From Roseiflexus sp. (lineage in GTDB: Bacteria; Chloroflexota; Chloroflexia; Chloroflexales; Roseiflexaceae), in assembly GCA_025062325.1 (NCBI GenBank), contig JANXAL010000019.1, positions 1 to 64,000 on the forward strand: a stretch of DNA of 64,000 bases, in the 5' to 3' direction. Under the pieces are notes generated by a model. It saw nothing but the letters and a program-made list of their open reading frames with translations, was not told the DNA's origin and did no database searches. Both the position numbers and the translations under genes were made by a program. Shown here piece by piece: positions 24,201 to 35,183 of this stretch (positions within the stretch are counted from its first letter, which is position 1; every line of letters begins with the position of its first letter).

Positions 24201-25817
24201 ATGCGCTATCTTCTCGACCAGCGTTCCTATGACGAAATGCTGAAGCAGCCATACCATCCGCGTGACTGTTATGTGCGGGGCAATGAGTACTGCCATCATC
24301 TATACATCGATGGCGTCAAGTACACGGTAGCGCGCGCCGTCTACGCCTGTATGAAAGAAGCGCAGGCAAAGAACGACGTCGACGCCATGCTTCATCTTCA
24401 GATGCATATCTCGGACCTGGAACGACTGATCAGCGCGGCGCGGGCGCGCGGCGAGAATGTTCAGGCGCTGCGGTTGCTCGGCGATCCGCCGCCGAGCGAT
24501 GAGGAGGCGCGACCACAACTCGACAATTCGTTCGTGCCGAAGGCGCCGCAAACGATTGAGGAAACCGGTCTCAATCGCACGTTCCTGACGGAACACTTTC
24601 TGCGCATTCTCTACAACAAAGGACGTGCCACCGGGCGCGAAATTGCGGCGACCATGGGGGTCGTATACCAGATCATCGAGCCCATCATCACCGACCTGCG
24701 CAACGTCGAGCAGATTGACATCATTGGTCAGCGCGGGTACGGCGACATCAACTACGAATATGTGCTAACAATCCGCGGGCACGAAGCAGCGCGGGCAGCG
24801 ATGGACAAGACGCAGTACGTCGGACCGTGCCCCGTCATCCTGGACGACTGGATCGCGTCGGTCAAAGCGCAGACGGTGCGCAACGTGAAGGTGACCCGGC
24901 GCAATATCCGCGACGCTTTTGAGGGGCTGGTTATTGACGAGTCCATCCTCAACATGGTCGGTCCGGCCGTCAACTCCGGTTCATCGGTCATGCTCTTCGG
25001 CTACCCCGGCAATGGCAAGACAACCATCGCCGAACGTATCACGCACTTGATGGGCGACGACATCTTCATCCCTTACACGGTGTATGCGGATGGCGCGATT
25101 ATCAAGTTTTACGACGCTGTCATTCACGAACCGCCGCGTCGTCCCTGGAACGAGGAGATCGAGTACGACCGACGTTGGGTGCGCATCAGCCGTCCGGTGG
25201 TGATTGTTGGCGGCGAGCTGACCCTCGAGCAGTTGAACCTGATCTACAACGAGACGTCGAAAATCTATGAAGCGCCATTCCAGATGAAGGCGAACTGCGG
25301 CGTTTTCCTCATCGACGACTTCGGGCGACAGCAAGTGCGCGTGTTCGATCTGCTCAATCGCTGGATTGTGCCGCTCGAAAAGCGCTACGACTACCTGAAC
25401 ACGGTTACGGGGCAGAAGATTCAGATTCCCTTTGATCAACTGATCATGTTCAGCACGAACCTCGACCCTAAGGACCTTGGCGACGAGGCCTTACTGCGAC
25501 GCATCAAGTTTAAGATTGAAATCATTGACCCGACCGAAGAGCAGTGGCGTGAAATCTGGAAGATTATGTGCAAGGCGCGCAAAATTCCCTATGATGATCG
25601 CAGCATCGATTACCTGGTCGCCAAATGGTTCCGCGCCGAGGGGCGTCCGTTCCGCATGTGCCAGCCGCGCGACATCCTCGACCAGCTCATCTCGATTGCG
25701 CGCTACAATATGGAAACGCCGCTGCTGACGGCGGATCTGCTGGATGCGGCGTGTCTGTCGTATTTCCCCAGCAAAGAAAAGAAGAACTTTGGCGCAAAAG
25801 TGCGGCTTGATCTCTAG
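24201..25817 (+). CDS. AAA+ ATPase with internal winged-helix-like domain, function unknown
   Basis: 538 residues. Residues 1-95 are a helical N-terminal region. Residues about 125-200 resemble a winged helix (LTEHFLRILYNKGRATGREIAATMGVVYQIIEPIITDL). Residues about 250-500 form an AAA+ module: Walker A G267-Y-P-G-N-G-K-T-T, Walker B F-L-I-D-D (371-373), a sensor-1-like IMFSTNLDP and an arginine-finger-like LLRRIKFK. It is not a FtsH, RuvB or MoxR protein by eye. Similar 'predicted ATPase' proteins occur in several phyla without a settled role. It has no operon partner: repeat-filled gaps lie on both sides. A regulatory or remodelling role is only inferred from the domain pair. Confidence 0.75.
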   Translation: MRYLLDQRSYDEMLKQPYHPRDCYVRGNEYCHHLYIDGVKYTVARAVYACMKEAQAKNDVDAMLHLQMHISDLERLISAARARGENVQALRLLGDPPPSDEEARPQLDNSFVPKAPQTIEETGLNRTFLTEHFLRILYNKGRATGREIAATMGVVYQIIEPIITDLRNVEQIDIIGQRGYGDINYEYVLTIRGHEAARAAMDKTQYVGPCPVILDDWIASVKAQTVRNVKVTRRNIRDAFEGLVIDESILNMVGPAVNSGSSVMLFGYPGNGKTTIAERITHLMGDDIFIPYTVYADGAIIKFYDAVIHEPPRRPWNEEIEYDRRWVRISRPVVIVGGELTLEQLNLIYNETSKIYEAPFQMKANCGVFLIDDFGRQQVRVFDLLNRWIVPLEKRYDYLNTVTGQKIQIPFDQLIMFSTNLDPKDLGDEALLRRIKFKIEIIDPTEEQWREIWKIMCKARKIPYDDRSIDYLVAKWFRAEGRPFRMCQPRDILDQLISIARYNMETPLLTADLLDAACLSYFPSKEKKNFGAKVRLDL

Positions 25818-26253: not shown

Positions 26254-26436
26254 AGTGCGCCCGGCATGAAAGGCATCCTCAGTCACGCACGCTAGGTCGC
26301 TCTGTGGCATCGCGTGGCGACGACCTAGCACGGGATGCGCTGCAATGATTGTTATTGTGATGGGCGAACCGGAGCCGCGATTGCAACGTAATGTTCATAG
26401 GAGCGGCAGACGATGCTATTGAGAGGAGCACAGGCA

Positions 26437-26841
26437 ATGACGACCACCCCGTTCGCCCCGCTTACCGGTCATCAGTATATGAATCTGACGACATTCCGCA
26501 AAAATGGACAACCAGTGCCGACGCCGGTCTGGTTTGCACAGGAAGGAGACCGGATCTATGTGGTAACGCTTGCCACATCGGGCAAAGCAAAGCGCATTCG
26601 CGCCAATCCGCGGGTGCAACTGACGCCAAGCGACGCTCGTGGGAAACCGCTCGGCGAAACGATCGAAGCGCGTGCGCGGATCCTTGATCCATCCGAGCAG
26701 GACGTTGGACACCGAGCGCTGGCAAAGAAGTACGGCGTCATGTACTGGATGTTTGCCAGCTTCTGGAAACTCCGGCGCCTGAAACCGGTCTTTCTCGAAA
26801 TCACGCCAGCAATGCCGGGCATTGAAGCATCGGTGTCGTAA
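26437..26841 (+). CDS. PPOX-class (FMN/F420-type) flavin-binding oxidoreductase
   Basis: 134 residues, a small split-barrel protein of the pyridoxamine-5'-phosphate-oxidase superfamily. The pattern FAPLTGHQYMNLTTFRKNG, then VPTPVWFAQEGDRIYVVT and SGKAKRIRANPRVQLTPSDARGKPLG, matches the subgroup often described as F420-dependent or heme/F420-binding PPOX proteins. It probably reduces a small organic substrate with a deazaflavin or flavin cofactor in the cytoplasm; the substrate is unknown. The start at 26437 follows GAGAGGAG with an 8-base gap; an ATG eight codons upstream lacks this. It is probably monocistronic, since a separate promoter is seen before the next gene. Confidence 0.85.
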   Translation: MTTTPFAPLTGHQYMNLTTFRKNGQPVPTPVWFAQEGDRIYVVTLATSGKAKRIRANPRVQLTPSDARGKPLGETIEARARILDPSEQDVGHRALAKKYGVMYWMFASFWKLRRLKPVFLEITPAMPGIEASVS

Positions 26842-26952: not shown

Positions 26953-28029
26953 GTGTCATACTCTCTGGCATTGGGACCCTTTCACCCCGCGTGGCTCGGT
27001 CCGCAGCGCTTCATCCTGCGAGTTGCTGGCGATCGTGTGATCGATGTCGAATATCAGAGCGGGTTCAATGAGCGTGGTTGCGCTGAGCGTCTCCTGCGAC
27101 TGCCTCTTCCTGATGCGCTGCATCTAGTTGCCCGGATCTGCGGTGAATGCTCCTTCGCCCACTCACTGGCATTTTGCCAAGCGCTGGAGCGTTTGTGCAA
27201 TCGCACCGTCGGCGCACGCGCCGCACTGATCCGGACCGCGGCGGCGGAACTGGAGCGGGCCTCCGCACACCTGCGCGCTGCTGGCGCTGTGTTGTATGCC
27301 ATCGGAATGGATCGGCATGGTGCGCGCCTCGAAACTCTCTCCTGCCAATTCCGCGATATGCTGGCGCAGGTGACGGGCGGGCGCATTCCGCCGCCAGTCT
27401 GTGTGCCGGGTGGATTGCTACGTGATCTATCGTCGAGCGACCGAAACGATCTGCTGGCGCTGCTGCCGGGAATATGCGCCGATCTCTACCGCTTCATTGA
27501 TCGCCTGATCGATCAGCGTCTCTTGATGGCGCGCACATGTGAGGTGGGTGTTCTGCCGCGCATAGCGGCAGAGCAATATGGTGTGCGCGGACCGATGGCG
27601 CGTGCATCCGGCATTCATTGTGATGTCCGCGCCGATCAGCCGTATGCGGCATACCCGATGCTCGCCTTCCAGCCAATCGTCCAGGAAGGCGGCGATGTAC
27701 ACGCCCGCCTGCTGATGCTCCTGCTGGAAGCATACGAAAGCGTCAAACTTGTTGAAGCTGCGCTTCAGCGTCTCCCGGATGAAGATCCGGTGGCGGGATT
27801 ACCGGAGGATCTGCCGCACGGTCAGGCATCTGGGATGGTCGAAGGACCCAGAGGGGCGATTCGCTACACGATCGAGAGTGATGGGCTGCGTCTGACCCGC
27901 ATTGAGATCGACACGCCGCGTCAGTGTGATCGGTTGCTGGCGCGCACCCTGCTCAGCCGAGCGCAACTGGACGATGTGATGGCAATTATAGCGTCGATTG
28001 CTGTCTGCGTCGCCTGTGCCGAACAGTAG
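26953..28029 (+). CDS. Complex-I 49-kDa / group 4 [NiFe]-hydrogenase-like large subunit
   Basis: 358 residues. It begins SYSLALGPFHPAWLGPQRF, like NuoD and hydrogenase large subunits (LGPxHP). The first metal motif is complete: R61-I-C63-G-E-C66-S-F-A-H70 fits R-x-C-G-x-C-x3-H of [NiFe] hydrogenases. The second is partial: the chain ends V-C352-V-A-C355-A-E-Q-stop, keeping C-x2-C but lacking the D-P before it and the final R/H. The stop falls exactly where maturation would leave the C terminus of a processed hydrogenase. NuoD proteins lack these cysteines, so the protein is nearer to hydrogenases or Ehr-type relatives. There is no NuoC-like N-terminal domain. It probably sits at the membrane-facing cytoplasmic arm of a complex made by the next five genes. 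GTG start. Confidence 0.85.
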   Translation: MSYSLALGPFHPAWLGPQRFILRVAGDRVIDVEYQSGFNERGCAERLLRLPLPDALHLVARICGECSFAHSLAFCQALERLCNRTVGARAALIRTAAAELERASAHLRAAGAVLYAIGMDRHGARLETLSCQFRDMLAQVTGGRIPPPVCVPGGLLRDLSSSDRNDLLALLPGICADLYRFIDRLIDQRLLMARTCEVGVLPRIAAEQYGVRGPMARASGIHCDVRADQPYAAYPMLAFQPIVQEGGDVHARLLMLLLEAYESVKLVEAALQRLPDEDPVAGLPEDLPHGQASGMVEGPRGAIRYTIESDGLRLTRIEIDTPRQCDRLLARTLLSRAQLDDVMAIIASIAVCVACAEQ

Positions 28030-28032
28030 CAT

Positions 28033-29757
28033 ATGATCTTTCTGGCTTTCATGTTGCCACTGGCAAGCGTTGTTGTCTGTCTAGCGCTGGATCGTTTTGC
28101 CGCATCGCGCCTGATCGGTTTGGGCGCCGCGGTCACACTTCTCCTTAGCGCAATCCTGCTAATAGTCGGACGTCTGACCCAGGCATTGCCACTGATCGTT
28201 GTCGAAAGCGTCTGGTTAGAGTGGCGCATCATATCGTGGCATGTGACATTGATGATCGATCCGCTGGGATGGTCAATGGCACTAATTGCATATGGCGGCG
28301 GCGCTCTTGGTTTACTGGGCTTGGCGCTGGCGCTCCCTTCCAATCTGCGCGGTTTCAGCGGATTGTTTGCGGCATTGCTGCTCGCGCTCTTCGGAGCGGC
28401 AGTTGGCGCGTGCAGCCCGACGCTGCCAGCACTGGCGCTCACGCCCGTGATCATAGGCGTTGCGTGGTTCGCTGCGCTCCGCATGAGTGGTGCGCTACCG
28501 GGATCGGACGCGCCGCTTGTGCTGATGGTCACCAGTGGCGTTGCGGCGCTGACACTGCTAGCAGTGCTCCTGATCCCACGCGCTGACTCGCCGGGAGCGT
28601 CACCGATCCTGATTGTGGCAGGGGTGCTGGCATCCGCCTGGATGTTATGCGGTCTTCCTCCGCTGCACGCATCGCTTGCGGCAGCGCATCTGGCGCCTGC
28701 CGCTCTGAGCGCCGTAGCGCCCCTCGGTCTGCCGCTCATCGGAGTTGTCGCGTTGCTGCGACTGTTGCCGGATTATCTGACGTTGCCAGAGCAGACAGGT
28801 TTTGCTGTCCTAACGGTTACAGGCGTACTGGCATTCGTTATCGCGGCAGCGCGCGCGGTATGGTCGAATTCGCTGCGGCAGATTGTAGCAGCGCAGTTGA
28901 GCGCCCAGGTTGCGCTCATTATTGTTTGCGCCGGATGTGGTGGCAAGGATATGGAAGCAATCGCCCCCCCGCTGGCAGTGAATGCACTGATCTCAACGCT
29001 GTCGCTGGCGTTAGGAGTCGCAGCGCTTGAGCGACGGAGCGGCAGCGATGATGTGACCGCACCGACCCATCACCCCGAGAGTGCGCTGCACGTAACAACC
29101 TTTGGGATGATTCTGGCAGCGTCATCTGCTGTCGGTATTCCCGGAACTTGGGGATTCTGGCCGCGACTCTGGTTGTTCGATGCGGTGCAGCGATCAGCGC
29201 CCTGGGCGATAGCGCCGTTGCTGGCGGGCAGCAGTCTGCTGGCGCTAGCGATGGTTGCGCCGCTGGTGCGTTTCTGGCGTGCGTCTGCGCCCGCACCTTC
29301 TTCGCCGCAAAGGATGCATCCGGGAGAACTCTTGCCGTTTGGCGTTGCTCTGCTGCTGGTCGTGATGGGCGTCGTTCCAGAGGCTGTATGGCGCCTTGTG
29401 CATGTCGCCTCGTCAGACAGTGCGCTGCGCTTTCCAGACCTCGCAGGAACCATCGTGTCTGTTATTGCAGCGTTGCTGGTGATCGCGGCGCCGGTCGCCC
29501 TGCGCCATGCCCGCGAACGCCGTGCGCTACCGCCGGACGAACGCCTTGCATCCGTCCTGACTCCTGATACAATCGGCGCGTCATTGTACGGCCTCGTGTG
29601 GCTGGCGGCGCCTGCGCTTTCAGAAGCGCTTCATTCCGGTCTTGCGCAGATCGCGCTGCGGATCAGGCAAGGGCTGGCAGTGCTCGGACGCCGCTACTAT
29701 CTGGCTGCGGTCCTCTTTGCGTTGATTGTGGTGATCCTCGTGTTTGCAGCAGTGTAG
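28033..29757 (+). CDS. Antiporter-like membrane subunit (NuoL/HyfB type), degenerate channel residues
   Basis: 574 residues with about 14 membrane segments and a C-terminal amphipathic stretch ending in one more segment, as in the long proton-pumping subunits of complex I and group 4 hydrogenases. The central signature is weak: LPPLHASLAAAHLAPAALSAV stands where NuoL/M/N have PxHxWLPxAxxxAPxxVSAL. The lysine before this motif and the glutamate of TM5 are not seen, and the DxKR of TM8 is replaced by NSLRQ. It therefore looks like a structural or altered ion-path subunit. It starts three bases after the large-subunit stop and two bases before the next gene, so the genes are tightly packed. Confidence 0.78.
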   Translation: MIFLAFMLPLASVVVCLALDRFAASRLIGLGAAVTLLLSAILLIVGRLTQALPLIVVESVWLEWRIISWHVTLMIDPLGWSMALIAYGGGALGLLGLALALPSNLRGFSGLFAALLLALFGAAVGACSPTLPALALTPVIIGVAWFAALRMSGALPGSDAPLVLMVTSGVAALTLLAVLLIPRADSPGASPILIVAGVLASAWMLCGLPPLHASLAAAHLAPAALSAVAPLGLPLIGVVALLRLLPDYLTLPEQTGFAVLTVTGVLAFVIAAARAVWSNSLRQIVAAQLSAQVALIIVCAGCGGKDMEAIAPPLAVNALISTLSLALGVAALERRSGSDDVTAPTHHPESALHVTTFGMILAASSAVGIPGTWGFWPRLWLFDAVQRSAPWAIAPLLAGSSLLALAMVAPLVRFWRASAPAPSSPQRMHPGELLPFGVALLLVVMGVVPEAVWRLVHVASSDSALRFPDLAGTIVSVIAALLVIAAPVALRHARERRALPPDERLASVLTPDTIGASLYGLVWLAAPALSEALHSGLAQIALRIRQGLAVLGRRYYLAAVLFALIVVILVFAAV

Positions 29758-29760
29758 CTA

Positions 29761-30480
29761 ATGTTGGATATGCACCTCAACTGGACCATCGTCAGCTTGA
29801 CCGTCTCTAGCGGAGTCGTGCTTCTGCTGCGTGACTGGCGGTTGACCGTGCCGGCATTGTCCATCAACTACCTGAGTGTCGCGTGGTTCCTGGCACAGCA
29901 ACAGTTTATCGAACCCGATTTGGCGATTGGCAATCTCGCGCTCAGTACAACCATTGTGGTCAAGGTGATCACTGGTTTGGCTGCCAGTGCCATCCTGGGG
30001 ATTACCGCAATCACGTTTTCACGCGAGTACAATCTGGAAGATCTCGATGAATTTTCGCTGGCGGAACTGCGCCGGGCCGCACGGCGCGCCCAACGGCAGC
30101 GCGCCAGTGAACCGTTCCGCTTTTCAGACTATGTGGTTCCGTTCTGGGCGCTGGTGCTAGCGGCGCTTGCGAGCCTCACGTTACCGCGCCTCTACCCTAT
30201 TGGCGGTCAGACGGTCGATTTCGCCTGGTACTGGTTGGGGCTGACTGGTCTCTTCACGGTTGTTATCGCTGGTGATACGCTGAAGATTGGGCTAGGGCTG
30301 CTCCTGGTCGTCAGCAGCATCGATCTGGTCTATACGGCGATTGCCAGCACTGTCCAGGTGTTTCCCCTGGCCTTGTTGAGCCTAACGACTATCGTGCTGT
30401 CACTGTCGATTGCCTATCTGAGCGGCTTGATGTACGGTCGACTCAAAACGCTCGATCTTGGCGCTCTGTACAAACGCTAA
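29761..30480 (+). CDS. HyfE/NuoK-like membrane subunit of the complex
   Basis: 239 residues with about six or seven hydrophobic segments and a charged middle loop (EYNLEDLDEFSLAELRRAARRAQRQRASEPF). The C-terminal half (GDTLKIGLGLLLVVSSIDLVYTAIAS) resembles the NuoK/HyfE pattern. The N-terminal half is less recognisable. The length matches HyfE (about 215 residues) better than NuoK (about 100). The identification relies on position between two antiporter-like genes plus topology, so confidence is moderate. It probably lies in the membrane arm and helps form the ion path. Confidence 0.62.
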   Translation: MLDMHLNWTIVSLTVSSGVVLLLRDWRLTVPALSINYLSVAWFLAQQQFIEPDLAIGNLALSTTIVVKVITGLAASAILGITAITFSREYNLEDLDEFSLAELRRAARRAQRQRASEPFRFSDYVVPFWALVLAALASLTLPRLYPIGGQTVDFAWYWLGLTGLFTVVIAGDTLKIGLGLLLVVSSIDLVYTAIASTVQVFPLALLSLTTIVLSLSIAYLSGLMYGRLKTLDLGALYKR

Positions 30481-30510
30481 GACGGTTTCACGTCTGCGCT
30501 GCCTCCGGCA

Positions 30511-31989
30511 GTGGCGCATTTTGGCAAGATCATGGCCTACGTGCTTCTCACGGCCTTTCCTGTTGTCCTCGGCGCGAGTTGTTTTCTGCTCCGAAAGGAG
30601 ACGCACCTGGTCGTTGGGTTGTCGGTTGCGGCGCTGATGGTCCAGCTTGCCCTGGTGCTGTTCATGCCGGTTGATCGACCAGTGCGGTTGCTGGGTCTCA
30701 CTCTTAATCTCGATCCGCTCGGACGACTGTTCCTGGCCGGCTTCCCAGCGGTGACAGCATTGATGGTTCTGACAACGCAACGCTTGCCGCATGGTGAACA
30801 TTTCGTCTCAATTGCGCTTGTCATCATCGGTGTTGCCTCAGCGATTGTCCTGCTCCTGCAGGAACCCTTCGTCGTTGCGTTGCTGCTGGTCAGTGCCGGA
30901 TTGCTTTCCATTCTCGCAATTGTCGATCTTCCGACTGGTGCGCCAACCCTGATCGCACCCAGGCTCATTGCTTCGGCGCTCAAGTATCTGGTGCTGATGG
31001 CATTCGCCGGAGCGCTGGCATATATGGGATTTGTCCTTATCAATGTTTACCGCCCCGGCGTTTTCCTGGATCAAATCGCGCCGCGGATTGTGCTGGCGCT
31101 AATGGTCGTGGCATTCGGCGTCCGCATCGGGCTTGTGCCGTTTCATTCCTGGTTGCCCGATCTCGTGGAAGACGCCTCGCCGCTGGCGTCGGCGCTGATT
31201 ATCGTGGTATTGAACACAACAGGACTGCTATTTCTGATCAGCGTGTTCCAGTTTTTTCCAGCGTTAGTGTCGGAAAATGAACGCGGCCTGCAGTTGCTGA
31301 CGTGGCTGGGAGCGCTGGCGGCGCTAGCCGGTTCCTGTCTGGCGCTGGTGCAGGATTGCCCGCGGCGAATCATCGGGTATCTGGTCGTTTATAATGCCGG
31401 TATGATCCTGTTTGGATTGGCGACGACCACATCTATCGGCCTGGCAGGCGCTGTGTTTGAGGCACTTAATCAAATGCTAGCAGTCCCGCTGCTGATGGTC
31501 TCACTAGCGTTCCTGGAACAACCGAATGGACATTCGTTGAAGACAGAGCGACGCGATGTGCTCTGGCGATGGCCTCTTGCGGGAAGTGGCCTGTTGGGGA
31601 GCGGCGCGGCGCTGGTTGGATTGCCGCCATCGAGCGGATTTGCGAGCAAGATGCTTTTGTATGAAGTTGCAGCGCGCCGTGGAGCCTTCTTGCTGATCCT
31701 GCTCATAAGCTCATCGGTGCTGGCGATGCTAGCGCTTGCCCGCATTGCCCGCGACTGGCTGATTAGCGCACCGGGGGATCAACCTGGTTCTGCAACGCCG
31801 TTGCTGCTCGGAGCGACCGAACTCGATCTGCCGTCACGGCGTTCTCTGACGCCTGAACCATTGATCGCTGCATTCGTGGTGCTGACCTTCCTGGGAGGGA
31901 TCCTGGCAATCGGACTGTATCCGCAACCGCTGCTCGCAACGATTGCTGATGTCATTCGCGGGTTGACGTTTGTCAGGGGGGAGGGTTGA
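30511..31989 (+). CDS. Antiporter-like membrane subunit (NuoN/HyfF type)
   Basis: 492 residues, about 14 membrane segments. The signature region is clearer than in the partner subunit: GVRIGLVPFHSWLPDLVEDASPLASALI. The usual lysine before PFHxWLP is an arginine here. The TM8 part reads DCPRRIIGYLVVYNAGMILFG, and the distal GLPPSSGFASKMLLYEVA keeps a lysine. The TM5 glutamate is not evident. It would be one of the ion-translocating modules of the complex. The start is uncertain: GTG at 30511 or ATG at 30532 (seven codons later); neither has a strong ribosome site. Confidence 0.8.
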   Translation: MAHFGKIMAYVLLTAFPVVLGASCFLLRKETHLVVGLSVAALMVQLALVLFMPVDRPVRLLGLTLNLDPLGRLFLAGFPAVTALMVLTTQRLPHGEHFVSIALVIIGVASAIVLLLQEPFVVALLLVSAGLLSILAIVDLPTGAPTLIAPRLIASALKYLVLMAFAGALAYMGFVLINVYRPGVFLDQIAPRIVLALMVVAFGVRIGLVPFHSWLPDLVEDASPLASALIIVVLNTTGLLFLISVFQFFPALVSENERGLQLLTWLGALAALAGSCLALVQDCPRRIIGYLVVYNAGMILFGLATTTSIGLAGAVFEALNQMLAVPLLMVSLAFLEQPNGHSLKTERRDVLWRWPLAGSGLLGSGAALVGLPPSSGFASKMLLYEVAARRGAFLLILLISSSVLAMLALARIARDWLISAPGDQPGSATPLLLGATELDLPSRRSLTPEPLIAAFVVLTFLGGILAIGLYPQPLLATIADVIRGLTFVRGEG

Positions 31990-32088
31990 AGGGGGAAGGT
32001 TGAAGGCGTCGGGGAAGGCGTTGAACGTTGAACGTTGAGTGTCTGTCACGTCGTTCTCGGTTCGCAGTTCTTTGCTCTTGGCTCTCGC

Positions 32089-32457
32089 ATGAAGCGTAGT
32101 ATCCAAGTCTATCGGTTCAACACCGGCTCGTGCGGCGGTTGCGATCTCGAAATTGGTGCGGCGATCAGCGCCGTTACTGATATTGGCTGGGCGGCAACGC
32201 CACAGGAGGCGAACGTATTGTTGATCACCGGTCCGCTGACACCCGGCGCGAAAGCAGCACTGGTGGCGCTGATGCGCGACTCCGGCAATCATGCACCGAT
32301 CCTAGCTGTTGGACGGTGCGCTATCGATGGACGTCCGTTTGGTCGAGGAGGAGTCACCGGCACTTCCGAGCTGATAGTTCACTCCTCGCTCGATGGCTGC
32401 CCGCCAACGCCATCCCAAATCATTGAAGCCATCCGTCGTGTCGCCGCGGGTGACTGA
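32089..32457 (+). CDS. NuoB/hydrogenase-small-subunit-like [4Fe-4S] protein
   Basis: 122 residues, similar in size to the small subunits of group 4 hydrogenases. It begins MKRSIQVYRFNTGSCGGCDLEI, the classic GSCxGCD motif. Two further cysteines follow in VGRCAIDG and LDGCPPTPSQIIEAI. The four cysteines match the ligands of the proximal (N2-type) [4Fe-4S] cluster next to the large subunit. It therefore should pass electrons to or from the large subunit. The start at 32089 is chosen because homologous proteins begin this way; the frame upstream runs through repeated GTTGAACGTTGAACGTTGA sequence. It is fifth in the cluster. Confidence 0.87.
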   Translation: MKRSIQVYRFNTGSCGGCDLEIGAAISAVTDIGWAATPQEANVLLITGPLTPGAKAALVALMRDSGNHAPILAVGRCAIDGRPFGRGGVTGTSELIVHSSLDGCPPTPSQIIEAIRRVAAGD

Positions 32458-32489
32458 GGAGCGATGCAGCGCGGGGATGAAACCAGGAT

Positions 32490-33314
32490 ATGATAGATGT
32501 CTTTGTGGCAGTGGCGCTGGCAGCGGCGCTGGCATCCGGTCTAGGCATACTCGTCGCGCAGACGATGACCGAGGTTGGCATCTGGACGTTACCATCGGCG
32601 CGTCGCCTGCCGCAGAGTATCGATGGATGGGCAGCGGTAGCGTGTATTGTGTTGGTGATCCTGGCATTTGCTGCGCTGCCCTGGCCTCTGCATCCGGCAA
32701 GCGATCATGGCTGGGTGGGAAATCCGGCGCTGTTATGGGCGCTCATCGAAGGCGCATTTCTAGCGCCGGTTTTTACCGGTCTCCTGGCGCCTTCACCGCT
32801 GGCGGCGCGCGCCGCAATGCGCGAAGCGCAGGTGAATGCAGCGGGACGACTGGCGCTCTGGGTGGCGGCAGGGAGTTCGCTATGGGGCAGCGCAGGATGG
32901 ACCGGGCTTGAAGTGCTGGGGCGAATCGTTCTGTTTGTTGTGGGTGGAGCAACAGTTGTTGCTGCCGCTGGTCTGGGACCGTTCGCACCGGATACCAGCC
33001 TCTCCCCGTCTGGCGCCGAGGAAGGTCTCGATGCAGATGAACGCTGGCTGGCGCATGTGGCGCGTCATATGCGAGCCGGACTGATGCTGGCGTTCTTTGT
33101 GGTCAGCGTCGTACCTGGACAGGAAGTGGTTCAGCCGGGCATCGCCTCGATGATCGCAATTGCACTCCTTGCTATACTTATTACCGGGTTGCGTTGGGTC
33201 CAGCGAACGTTGCCGCGTCTAACTCTGCACGCAACTGTGCAGTGGTGTCTCCGGCGTATGCTGCCAGTCGCGCTGGTTGCAAGCGTGTATCTGGAGTTGG
33301 TGGCGAGGAGTTAG
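32490..33314 (+). CDS. NuoH/HyfC-like membrane-anchor subunit
   Basis: 274 residues with about seven or eight membrane segments. The arrangement MIDVFVAVALAAALASGLGILVAQTMTEVG, a cytoplasmic loop with AREAQVNAAGR, and a later charged loop SGAEEGLDADERWLAHVARHMRAGLMLAFFVVSVV is reminiscent of NuoH/HyfC, where acidic loops face the quinone or cluster site. It is shorter than E. coli NuoH (325) and close to group 4 anchor subunits. It is the last gene of the six-gene set. Assignment rests on topology and synteny rather than strong motifs. Confidence 0.68.
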   Translation: MIDVFVAVALAAALASGLGILVAQTMTEVGIWTLPSARRLPQSIDGWAAVACIVLVILAFAALPWPLHPASDHGWVGNPALLWALIEGAFLAPVFTGLLAPSPLAARAAMREAQVNAAGRLALWVAAGSSLWGSAGWTGLEVLGRIVLFVVGGATVVAAAGLGPFAPDTSLSPSGAEEGLDADERWLAHVARHMRAGLMLAFFVVSVVPGQEVVQPGIASMIAIALLAILITGLRWVQRTLPRLTLHATVQWCLRRMLPVALVASVYLELVARS

Positions 33315-33399: not shown

Positions 33400-34425
33400 A
33401 TGGATGTCATCGAACTCGACGAAGTGCACAAATCCTATGACGGCATTCCTGTGTTACGCGGGGTGTCGCTGCGCGTGCCTCAAGGCATCGTGTACGGCAT
33501 GCTCGGCCCGCACGGCGCGGGCAAAACGACGCTGATCCATCTTCTGCTCGGCTTTCTACGACCAGACCGCGGCGTTATTCGCATGTTCGGGAGCAACAAC
33601 CTGCACCAGGTTGATGGGCGTGTCGGCTACGTGCCGGAGCGGTTACGCTATCACAACCGCTACACGGTGCGTGAGTATTTGTGGTATCTAGGACGGTTCA
33701 GCGGTCTTTCCGGCGCAACGCTGCGTCGGCGAGTCGATGCTGAGATCAGCGCGTGTGGTTTGACCAGCGTTGCTAATCGACCGATGAGCGCACTCTCCCG
33801 CGGAATGGTGCAACGCGTCGGGATCGCACAGGCGCTGCTGAGCGAGCCGGATCTCTTGCTGATCGACGAACCGACGGCCAGCCTCGATCCAGAGGGACAG
33901 CAAGATGTTATTGAACTACTTGCTGCTGTGCGTCGACGGGGATGCACTATCTTGATGGCAACGCACTTTCTTGATGAAGCGGATCTCCTGTGCGATCGCA
34001 TCGGCATCCTGCACGGCGGGCGCATCATTGCAGAGGCGGACACCTGCACTCTCCAGCGACCGGCTGGCAGTGTTGTTATCACTGTGGCAGACATGCCAGC
34101 AGCAGCAAAGTCTGCTCTGACCGCGCTTTCGCCTGCTGTGCAGTGTAATCGACACGAGATCACGCTAACCCCAAACACGCCGGAATTGCAGGCGCAGGTC
34201 GTGCGTCTGCTCCTCGATCATGGCGTCACAATCATGACCCTTGCGCCCCAACGCCATCCGATAGAGGAATTCTACCTCGCGGCGGTGAGTGGTCATGCGA
34301 AGCGTGACAGGTCATCTGAGGCGCCAACCTCTCGTTTGCAGGGTTCAGAAGATGTGTTGCTCCACGAACTGCTGCGCCAGGAGGAACAGCAGACGTCCGA
34401 GGATCAACGGTCTAAACACCTATGA
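33400..34425 (+). CDS. ABC transporter ATP-binding subunit
   Basis: 341 residues. Walker A is GPHGAGKTT (36-44), the Q-loop region is YVPERLRYHNRYTVREYL, the signature is LSRGMVQRVGIAQAL, Walker B is LLLIDEPTASLDPEG and the H-loop is ATHFLDEA. A C-terminal domain of about 110 residues follows, as in ABC-2-type exporters (drug, Na+ or polysaccharide families). It works with the next gene, which it overlaps by four bases. It follows the complex-I-like cluster by 85 bases on the same strand and could be co-transcribed. The substrate is unknown. Confidence 0.9.
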   Translation: MDVIELDEVHKSYDGIPVLRGVSLRVPQGIVYGMLGPHGAGKTTLIHLLLGFLRPDRGVIRMFGSNNLHQVDGRVGYVPERLRYHNRYTVREYLWYLGRFSGLSGATLRRRVDAEISACGLTSVANRPMSALSRGMVQRVGIAQALLSEPDLLLIDEPTASLDPEGQQDVIELLAAVRRRGCTILMATHFLDEADLLCDRIGILHGGRIIAEADTCTLQRPAGSVVITVADMPAAAKSALTALSPAVQCNRHEITLTPNTPELQAQVVRLLLDHGVTIMTLAPQRHPIEEFYLAAVSGHAKRDRSSEAPTSRLQGSEDVLLHELLRQEEQQTSEDQRSKHL

Positions 34426-35183
34426 ACGCTCTTGTCCGAACATTCTGGTTTGCTGTCTTCACACTGGATGAGTATCTGCGTTCTGGGCGGATCATGGTTG
34501 AGCTGGCGGCCACGGCGGTGGCGTATTATCTCTTCTTTCGCCGCTGGACGACGCCAATGACGCCGGACTATTTTTTCTCAACGGCTGGCCTGTTCATGCT
34601 GGGGTTGACAGTGTATACCGGCTCGTCCATCCTTGCGCTTGGCGATCGGCCAGCGGGGTATGTGGCGCTGGCGCGGCGTTTAGGTCGCGGTCCGTACTTG
34701 ATGGGCCTGTATCTTGCGGTGCTGGCAGTGTCGTGGGGAATGTACGGCGCCGTCTGTCTGCTGGTCGCGTTTACGAACCCGCTGAGAAGCCTTGACTTCA
34801 TTGGTTGGGTGCTGGGCACGATCCCGCTGCTGCTGAACCTGGCGCTGCTGGCGGCGTTTTTGGCGCTGCTTACGCCTATGGTGCTGCCCGCGCCGTGGCG
34901 TCTCGCGGTACTGGCGCTGGTAGCATTGGCTTTCTCCGGGAGTCTGATTGGCGGCGCTACTATGTCATCACTGCCAGAGTCGGTTGCTATCGCGCTGGAC
35001 GTGATGCGCACCATCCTGAGCGCGCCATTGCTGCCGGCTTTCACTGGTTTTGCGATCTCGGTCAGTCGAGATTACAGCGGCGCATCGGCAGTTGTTCCTG
35101 TGGCGCAGTTGTTTCTGGTGATCGGGCTTCTGGCGTTTGCTGTATATTCATTCGCAAAGCGCGAAATCGTCTTTTCTGGCTAG
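34422..35183 (+). CDS. ABC-2-type transporter permease
   Basis: 253 residues with about six membrane segments and short loops, as expected for an ABC-2 permease. It starts MNALVRTFWFAVFTLDEYLRSGRIMVELAATAVAYYLFF, with the usual interface helix before the first segment, and ends in a cytoplasmic FAKREIVFSG. It overlaps the ATPase gene by four bases (ATGA), indicating translational coupling. Two copies of each subunit would make the exporter. The exported compound cannot be inferred. Confidence 0.82.
   Translation: MNALVRTFWFAVFTLDEYLRSGRIMVELAATAVAYYLFFRRWTTPMTPDYFFSTAGLFMLGLTVYTGSSILALGDRPAGYVALARRLGRGPYLMGLYLAVLAVSWGMYGAVCLLVAFTNPLRSLDFIGWVLGTIPLLLNLALLAAFLALLTPMVLPAPWRLAVLALVALAFSGSLIGGATMSSLPESVAIALDVMRTILSAPLLPAFTGFAISVSRDYSGASAVVPVAQLFLVIGLLAFAVYSFAKREIVFSG

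Follow-up and report, generated by a model that had tools for sequence, protein, structure and literature searches.

An eight-gene relative of group 4 hydrogenases in Roseiflexus, probably non-redox and non-pumping, with a linked ABC-2 transporter

The accepted view of complex I and the hydrogenases related to it is that they are ion pumps driven by redox chemistry. The energy-converting hydrogenase-related (Ehr) complexes are group 4-like but lack the Ni/Fe-coordinating residues, and their function is unknown or suspected to be redox-coupled translocation (PMC6349859, PMC12342949). Here we analysed an operon at 26953-33314 in a 64,000 nt stretch of Roseiflexus sp. (contig JANXAL010000019.1, positions 1 to 64,000; called the window below), in which six open reading frames (ORFs), D-B1-E-F-N-H, follow each other on the + strand with almost no gaps and are followed by an ATP-binding cassette (ABC) ATPase, X1, and a permease, X2. 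On balance, the sequences favour an Ehr-like relative of group 4 hydrogenases that is now non-redox and non-pumping, an eight-gene module working with an ABC-2 transporter. Its eroding redox sites, lost pump residues and near-constant ABC partner suggest that the complex probably has a job other than energy conversion.

In Chloroflexus, two complex I clusters were reported for the C. aurantiacus genome (PMC3150298), and two complex I sets plus two NiFe hydrogenases for C. aggregans (PMC8004040). The present operon is not listed in the parts of these two accounts that were covered, and as the literature coverage is partial, an earlier description is possible.

The operon and the placement of its large subunit

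The large subunit D (26953..28029, 358 aa) is group-4-hydrogenase/NuoD-like by Pfam (Complex1_49kDa, 3e-39), PDB matches, residue comparison and tree. It aligns over its full length with MbhL (4e-39), and the best PDB match of the D family profile is HycE (241 bits), followed by MbhL. A 41-sequence tree puts the Chloroflexales D proteins into a single clade (100/100), which is joined by two outgroup loci (L051 and L175), and the whole D set sits with group 4 hydrogenases, NuoD being split off at 100/100. By this placement D is a relative of group 4 hydrogenase and not NuoD, and an ordinary complex I is ruled out by the tree together with the gene content.

Downstream of D lie B1 (28033..29757, 574 aa), a HyfB/NuoL-type antiporter-like subunit; E (29761..30480, 239 aa), a HyfE-like membrane subunit; F (30511..31989, 492 aa), a HyfF/NuoM-type antiporter-like subunit, whose start is probably 30532 because its relatives begin with MAYLLL; N (32089..32457, 122 aa), a NuoB/HyfI-like [4Fe-4S] small subunit; and H (32490..33314, 274 aa), a NuoH/HyfC-like membrane anchor. 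Pfam assigns F to Proton_antipo_M (4e-21) and N to Oxidored_q6 (2e-11), and finds nothing above cut-off for B1, E and H. With HHalign, B1 matches HyfB (99.7%), N matches HyfI (99.7%) and H matches HyfC (97.9%). PDB profile searches by sequence with E and H gave no significant match. The fold predicted for H by AlphaFold (predicted local distance difference test, pLDDT, 84.7) has NuoH chains of complex I as its nearest solved structures in Foldseek, with template modelling (TM) scores of about 0.62-0.75.

The case of E is less direct. HHalign gives a probability of 5.8% against HyfE, so its assignment as a clear HyfE by profile was dropped, and the name HyfE-like is kept for its position and its colinear length and alignment. 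The E genes in further B-E-F modules of Chloroflexota are its orthologues (99.9%), and E is the most conserved of the six, with the highest amino-acid identity to the same-genus relative; its charged loop (LDEF..LAELRRAAR) is invariant, as are K68 and K175.

The earlier note, made from the letters of the window, had proposed these six genes in this order, without NuoC, ferredoxin or NADH genes, as a member of the Ehr class or a new Chloroflexota branch of it. The ORFs and the Pfam, HHalign and fold matches agree with the genes and their order. NuoC, a ferredoxin and an NADH module were found neither in nor beside the operon in the window, which leaves it without an electron-input subunit, and NuoA/C/E/F/G/I/J are absent from the operon. 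The two ordinary complex I clusters of this genome are separate from it, so missing subunits encoded elsewhere do not turn it into a standard complex, and the tree that the note had proposed as a check likewise places D outside ordinary complex I. As for the class, a distinct branch on the group 4/Ehr side stands, with the D clade at 100/100, but the strict Ehr definition does not fit the window copy.

Active-site, Fe-S and pump residues

In order to compare the active sites, 60 D proteins were aligned with 18 controls. The L0 proton-gate Glu is found in none of the 60 D proteins and in 17 of 18 controls, the remaining control (L182) being one that groups with NuoD in the tree. The L1 Glu/Asp before the first CxxC (R-x-C-G-x-x-C) is likewise missing from all 60 and present in 18 of 18 controls, and the Asp of DPC is absent from D. 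All members lack these two catalytic acidic residues, and judged by them D is not a working hydrogenase. The metal cysteines are retained in part: four are present in 42 of 60 D proteins, three in 16 and none in 2, and at the second cysteine Asp is the most frequent substitute (7 of 13), with His once. The window D belongs to the first group, holding all four former NiFe cysteines (RICGEC..., CVACAE) with both the L0 and the L1 Glu gone.

HypD is required for the Fe(CN)2CO group. It was not found in G142, a genome of the window's own family, nor in about 12 more Roseiflexaceae-like genomes with a four-cysteine D, nor in the Herpetosiphon and G150 genomes; no other NiFe hydrogenase was found in G142, Herpetosiphon or G150. 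Several of these genomes are incomplete assemblies, but there are enough of them to make chance absence unlikely. A four-cysteine D in genomes where HypD was not found makes a Hyp-built NiFe centre improbable at the D site, and on these relatives together with the L0/L1 residues a working hydrogenase was rejected. On contig C85 of the window genome, HypD shares a cluster with a separate hydrogenase, and another hydrogenase lies at C97, which explains the Hyp genes of this genome.

The small subunit N also varies. All four Fe-S cysteines are present in the window N. In most Chloroflexaceae N is absent genome-wide, including the single-contig genomes G118, G134 and G238; only the ordinary NuoB scores in those genomes, which rules out that N was relocated. 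In Herpetosiphonaceae N is present with all four Fe-S cysteines gone (NAGSTG, GRAS, DGDPP), and the ratio of nonsynonymous to synonymous substitution rates (dN/dS) between members of this family is 0.04-0.09, so the protein is constrained despite the cysteine loss. The reverse was seen in G214/N1_22, whose D has none of the four cysteines while the N of G214 retains four.

The residues of ion pumping have disappeared. In F, the Glu of transmembrane helix 5 (TM5) is found in 0 of 73 members, the TM7 Lys is replaced by Arg in 73 of 73 and the TM8 Lys is absent; in B1, none of 72 members has the TM5 Glu, the TM7 Lys or the TM8 Lys. Among the E. coli and Chloroflexota group 4 references, most have the TM5 Glu and TM7 Lys, and TM8 is variable (Asn in HyfF). 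The anchor H was compared with nine references, and positions that are acidic in 8-9 of 9 references are gone from it: E146 of HyfC is replaced by Arg in 65 of 65, E210 mostly by Ser or Ala, and E218 by Gly in 62 of 65. The window F, B1 and H share these losses. From the above, the complex is probably not a canonical ion pump. The coupling between a redox step and ion transport that the earlier note had suggested fits poorly with the loss of pump residues from F, B1 and H in all members and with an N that is absent in most Chloroflexaceae and cysteine-free in Herpetosiphon.

Some related clusters were also seen. Locus L175:4114-9469 (G084) contains D, a metallo-beta-lactamase-fold gene, one antiporter-like gene, N and H; in its D the first CxxC reads CGSA, the second cysteine having been lost. 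The outgroup L051:6190-11871 (G288) has D-B1-E-F-N, in which N is without any Fe-S cysteine and D has four cysteines and the L0 Glu; a second, Hyf-like cluster of G288 (L166) has a non-canonical first cysteine motif (NCAACT). In other Chloroflexota classes, there are shorter modules that combine a HyfE-like gene with a HyfF-like one (L052-L066; e.g. L060:6657-10560 and L053:5427-9707), several with a HyfB-like gene as well; D was not found near them, and in many the F-type subunit has no pump residues.

Distribution and the ABC transporter pair

Among 301 sampled Chloroflexota genomes, E is carried by 30 of 30 Chloroflexales, and the complex was not found in most other Chloroflexia of the sample. 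When about 85,000 species genomes were scanned with the E alignment, 57 loci came up, of which those with informative names are nearly all Chloroflexales (Roseiflexus, Chloroflexus, Oscillochloris, Viridilinea, Chloroploca, Herpetosiphon); two records of metagenome-assembled genomes among them (L082 and L093) bear unrelated organism names. The gene order in relatives is constant, D-B1-E-F-(N)-H-X1-X2. In Herpetosiphon aurantiacus (CP000875) the operon is in two parts, D-B1-E-F and, elsewhere, N-H-X1-X2; loss of N and H was first suspected there and was dropped once the second locus was found. Such conservation across the order indicates that the operon is not a chance arrangement. When the window is compared with its same-genus relative (G166), the eight genes show a dN/dS of 0.08-0.25, and by this measure selection still preserves them.

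The unit does not end with H, as the earlier note had it: the six genes are real, and the operon runs on into two more. X1 (33400..34425, +, 341 aa) is an ABC transporter ATPase by Pfam, alignment and synteny, and X2 (34422..35183, +, 253 aa), which overlaps X1 by 4 bp, is an ABC-2-type permease by synteny and predicted fold. The pair comes after H in nearly every locus, with the exception of L050 (G150), whose X2 is elsewhere in the genome; its place beside N-H in the split Herpetosiphon operon indicates that it stays with subunits of the complex through rearrangement. The X2 family has one copy in 4 of 4 tested genomes with the complex and is absent from 6 of 6 without it. In the window X1, Walker A, the signature (LSRGM), Walker B and the H-loop are all intact. 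The X2 model (pLDDT 81.6) has an ABC-2 fold, with NosY as its nearest, weak match (TM score 0.50-0.64, Foldseek E 0.007 or worse). An ABC-2 transporter is expected to have an ATPase with Walker A/B and signature and a permease of ABC-2 fold, and X1-X2 has both.

No other conserved neighbours were found in the direction of the operon. A lipoprotein-like gene of about 600 aa is near the module in 13 loci, mostly Chloroflexaceae; for example, at L045:13620-15419 it lies just past X2, convergent to the module. Just upstream of D the window has a MoxR-like-looking AAA ATPase (24201-25817), which is 96% identical in the same-genus relative with a dN/dS of 0.026, and an F420-type PPOX oxidoreductase (26413-26841). 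Of the tested loci, only that of the same-genus relative has counterparts of the two, for which reason the PPOX gene was dropped as a candidate electron partner. The gap between F and N (31990-32088) contains short repeats (GTTGAACGTTGAACGTTGAG) of a repetitive-looking type that also occurs between other genes of the window.

Competing explanations and known systems

In the explanation that we favour, the eight-gene module D-B1-E-F-N-H-X1-X2 would descend from a group 4 energy-converting hydrogenase that abandoned energy conversion. B1-E-F-H may form a membrane scaffold or conduit, and D and N a cytoplasmic cap put to structural or sensory use. In Roseiflexaceae, D would probably bind a metal such as Zn or Fe, and N an Fe-S cluster. 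ATP hydrolysis by X1 acting on X2, rather than electron transfer, would supply the work, as gene order and co-occurrence suggest, and the pair would transport a cargo. A broader reading, to which we attach only a modest chance, is that this is the first complex-I-superfamily assembly without redox chemistry or canonical proton pumping, an envelope or transport machine exapted across the order and powered by an ABC ATPase.

Several observations weigh against a fully non-redox, ABC-driven complex. Chief among them, Roseiflexaceae including the window retain four D and four N cysteines, which makes it likely that D has a metal site there and N an Fe-S cluster, perhaps with a structural or sensing role; and four cysteines in 42 of 60 D proteins point to continuing selection on the ligands in many lineages. 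The window genome does carry HypD, although beside a separate hydrogenase. The invariant membrane charges of E (K68, K175) and a conserved Arg and His in F make some ion path possible. X1 motifs are partly changed, with a degenerate-looking ATPase, in the G142-like and G214 lineages, where an ATP-driven role is weaker, and the ABC link is drawn from synteny and from co-occurrence in a small set of genomes.

An Ehr-type redox-driven ion pump, in which a donor reduces the N cluster, electrons pass to a site in D and H+ or Na+ is moved by the membrane arm, would account for the eight retained metal-ligand cysteines of the window and other Roseiflexaceae, for the invariant Lys and Asp of E and for a subunit set like that of Ehr complexes, in which redox-charge translocation coupling is suspected (PMC6349859). 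It nevertheless appears unlikely, because both antiporter-like subunits have lost the TM5 Glu, TM7 Lys and TM8 Lys and H its conserved acidic residues, the window included, orthologous complexes go without N or have a cysteine-free one, and the operon has no donor-binding subunit. It is far less probable still, to the point of near implausibility, that Roseiflexus has a functional group 4 [NiFe] hydrogenase which uses soluble ferredoxin directly and that its relatives lost the activity: the four NiFe cysteines, the Fe-S small subunit, the HypD of the genome and the full-length alignment of D with MbhL and HycE speak for it, but the proton-gate Glu, the Glu before the first CxxC and the Asp of DPC are gone, the hydrogenases at C85 and C97 account for the Hyp genes, and Roseiflexaceae relatives where HypD was not found have the same four cysteines.

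A functionless relic, a pseudo-operon on its way to loss, would explain why catalytic residues, N and, locally, ABC ATPase motifs were lost many times independently; it is highly improbable given its presence in 30 of 30 Chloroflexales genomes, frames that are open nearly throughout, a constant gene order, the low dN/dS and the constraint on Herpetosiphon N after cysteine loss. We also considered the envelope or gliding machinery of filamentous Chloroflexales, that is, a membrane assembly at the cell surface which is ABC-powered or gated by proton motive force. The distribution follows the order, phototrophs and non-phototrophs alike, Chloroflexus aggregans and Herpetosiphon aurantiacus both glide (PMC13104615), and X1 matches GldA among many ABC ATPases. 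However, this distribution is confounded with common descent, the GldA likeness is generic to ABC ATPases and pili have already been proposed for this motility (PMC7332563), and we regard an envelope or gliding role as very unlikely.

The non-redox, non-pumping reading has consequences beyond this locus. Across the order the architecture persists, with redox sites that are eroding and pump residues that have already disappeared, and such persistence would provide natural variants that separate scaffold from function, with or without the Fe-S subunit and with 4, 3 or 0 active-site cysteines, so that the role of the complex I membrane arm without electrons becomes directly testable. It also calls for caution in Chloroflexus, Roseiflexus and Herpetosiphon, where such operons should not be annotated as hydrogenase or complex I.

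Among known systems, Ehr complexes, including Mbx/MBS of P. furiosus, share with the present complex a group-4-hydrogenase-like large subunit, NuoB-like, NuoH-like and antiporter-like subunits and a non-hydrogenase character. The window D differs in keeping four Ni/Fe cysteines, whose absence is the strict mark of Ehr and is partly seen elsewhere in the family (three cysteines in 16 of 60, none in 2 of 60). Further differences are the loss of NuoH acidic residues and of the canonical Glu/Lys for charge translocation, the latter in all 72-73 members, the linked ABC transporter, and sister lineages in which N is dispensable or cysteine-free. Formate hydrogenlyase and hydrogenase-4 of E. coli (HycE, HyfB-C-E-F-G-I) are close in that D is nearest to HycE and MbhL in the PDB and a Hyf counterpart can be named for each subunit, either from its profile or from its position. 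Clade placement and four cysteines thus agree with group 4, whereas the catalytic L0/L1 residues, the pump residues, the HyfA/HyfH ferredoxins, the NuoC domain and formate dehydrogenase are missing from the operon. Respiratory complex I (NuoB, D, H, L/M/N, K) has the same membrane-arm architecture, with H of NuoH fold; its NuoD-clade large subunit and NuoC/I/E/F/G have no place here, NuoA and NuoJ are also lacking, and the two ordinary clusters are separate in the genome. Finally, X1-X2 resembles ABC-2 exporters (NosFY, PmtCD, TarGH) as an ATPase with a 6-TM-like permease, NosY being the best, weak structural match, and differs from them in that no NosD-like partner was seen and the pair is locked to a complex-I-like operon.

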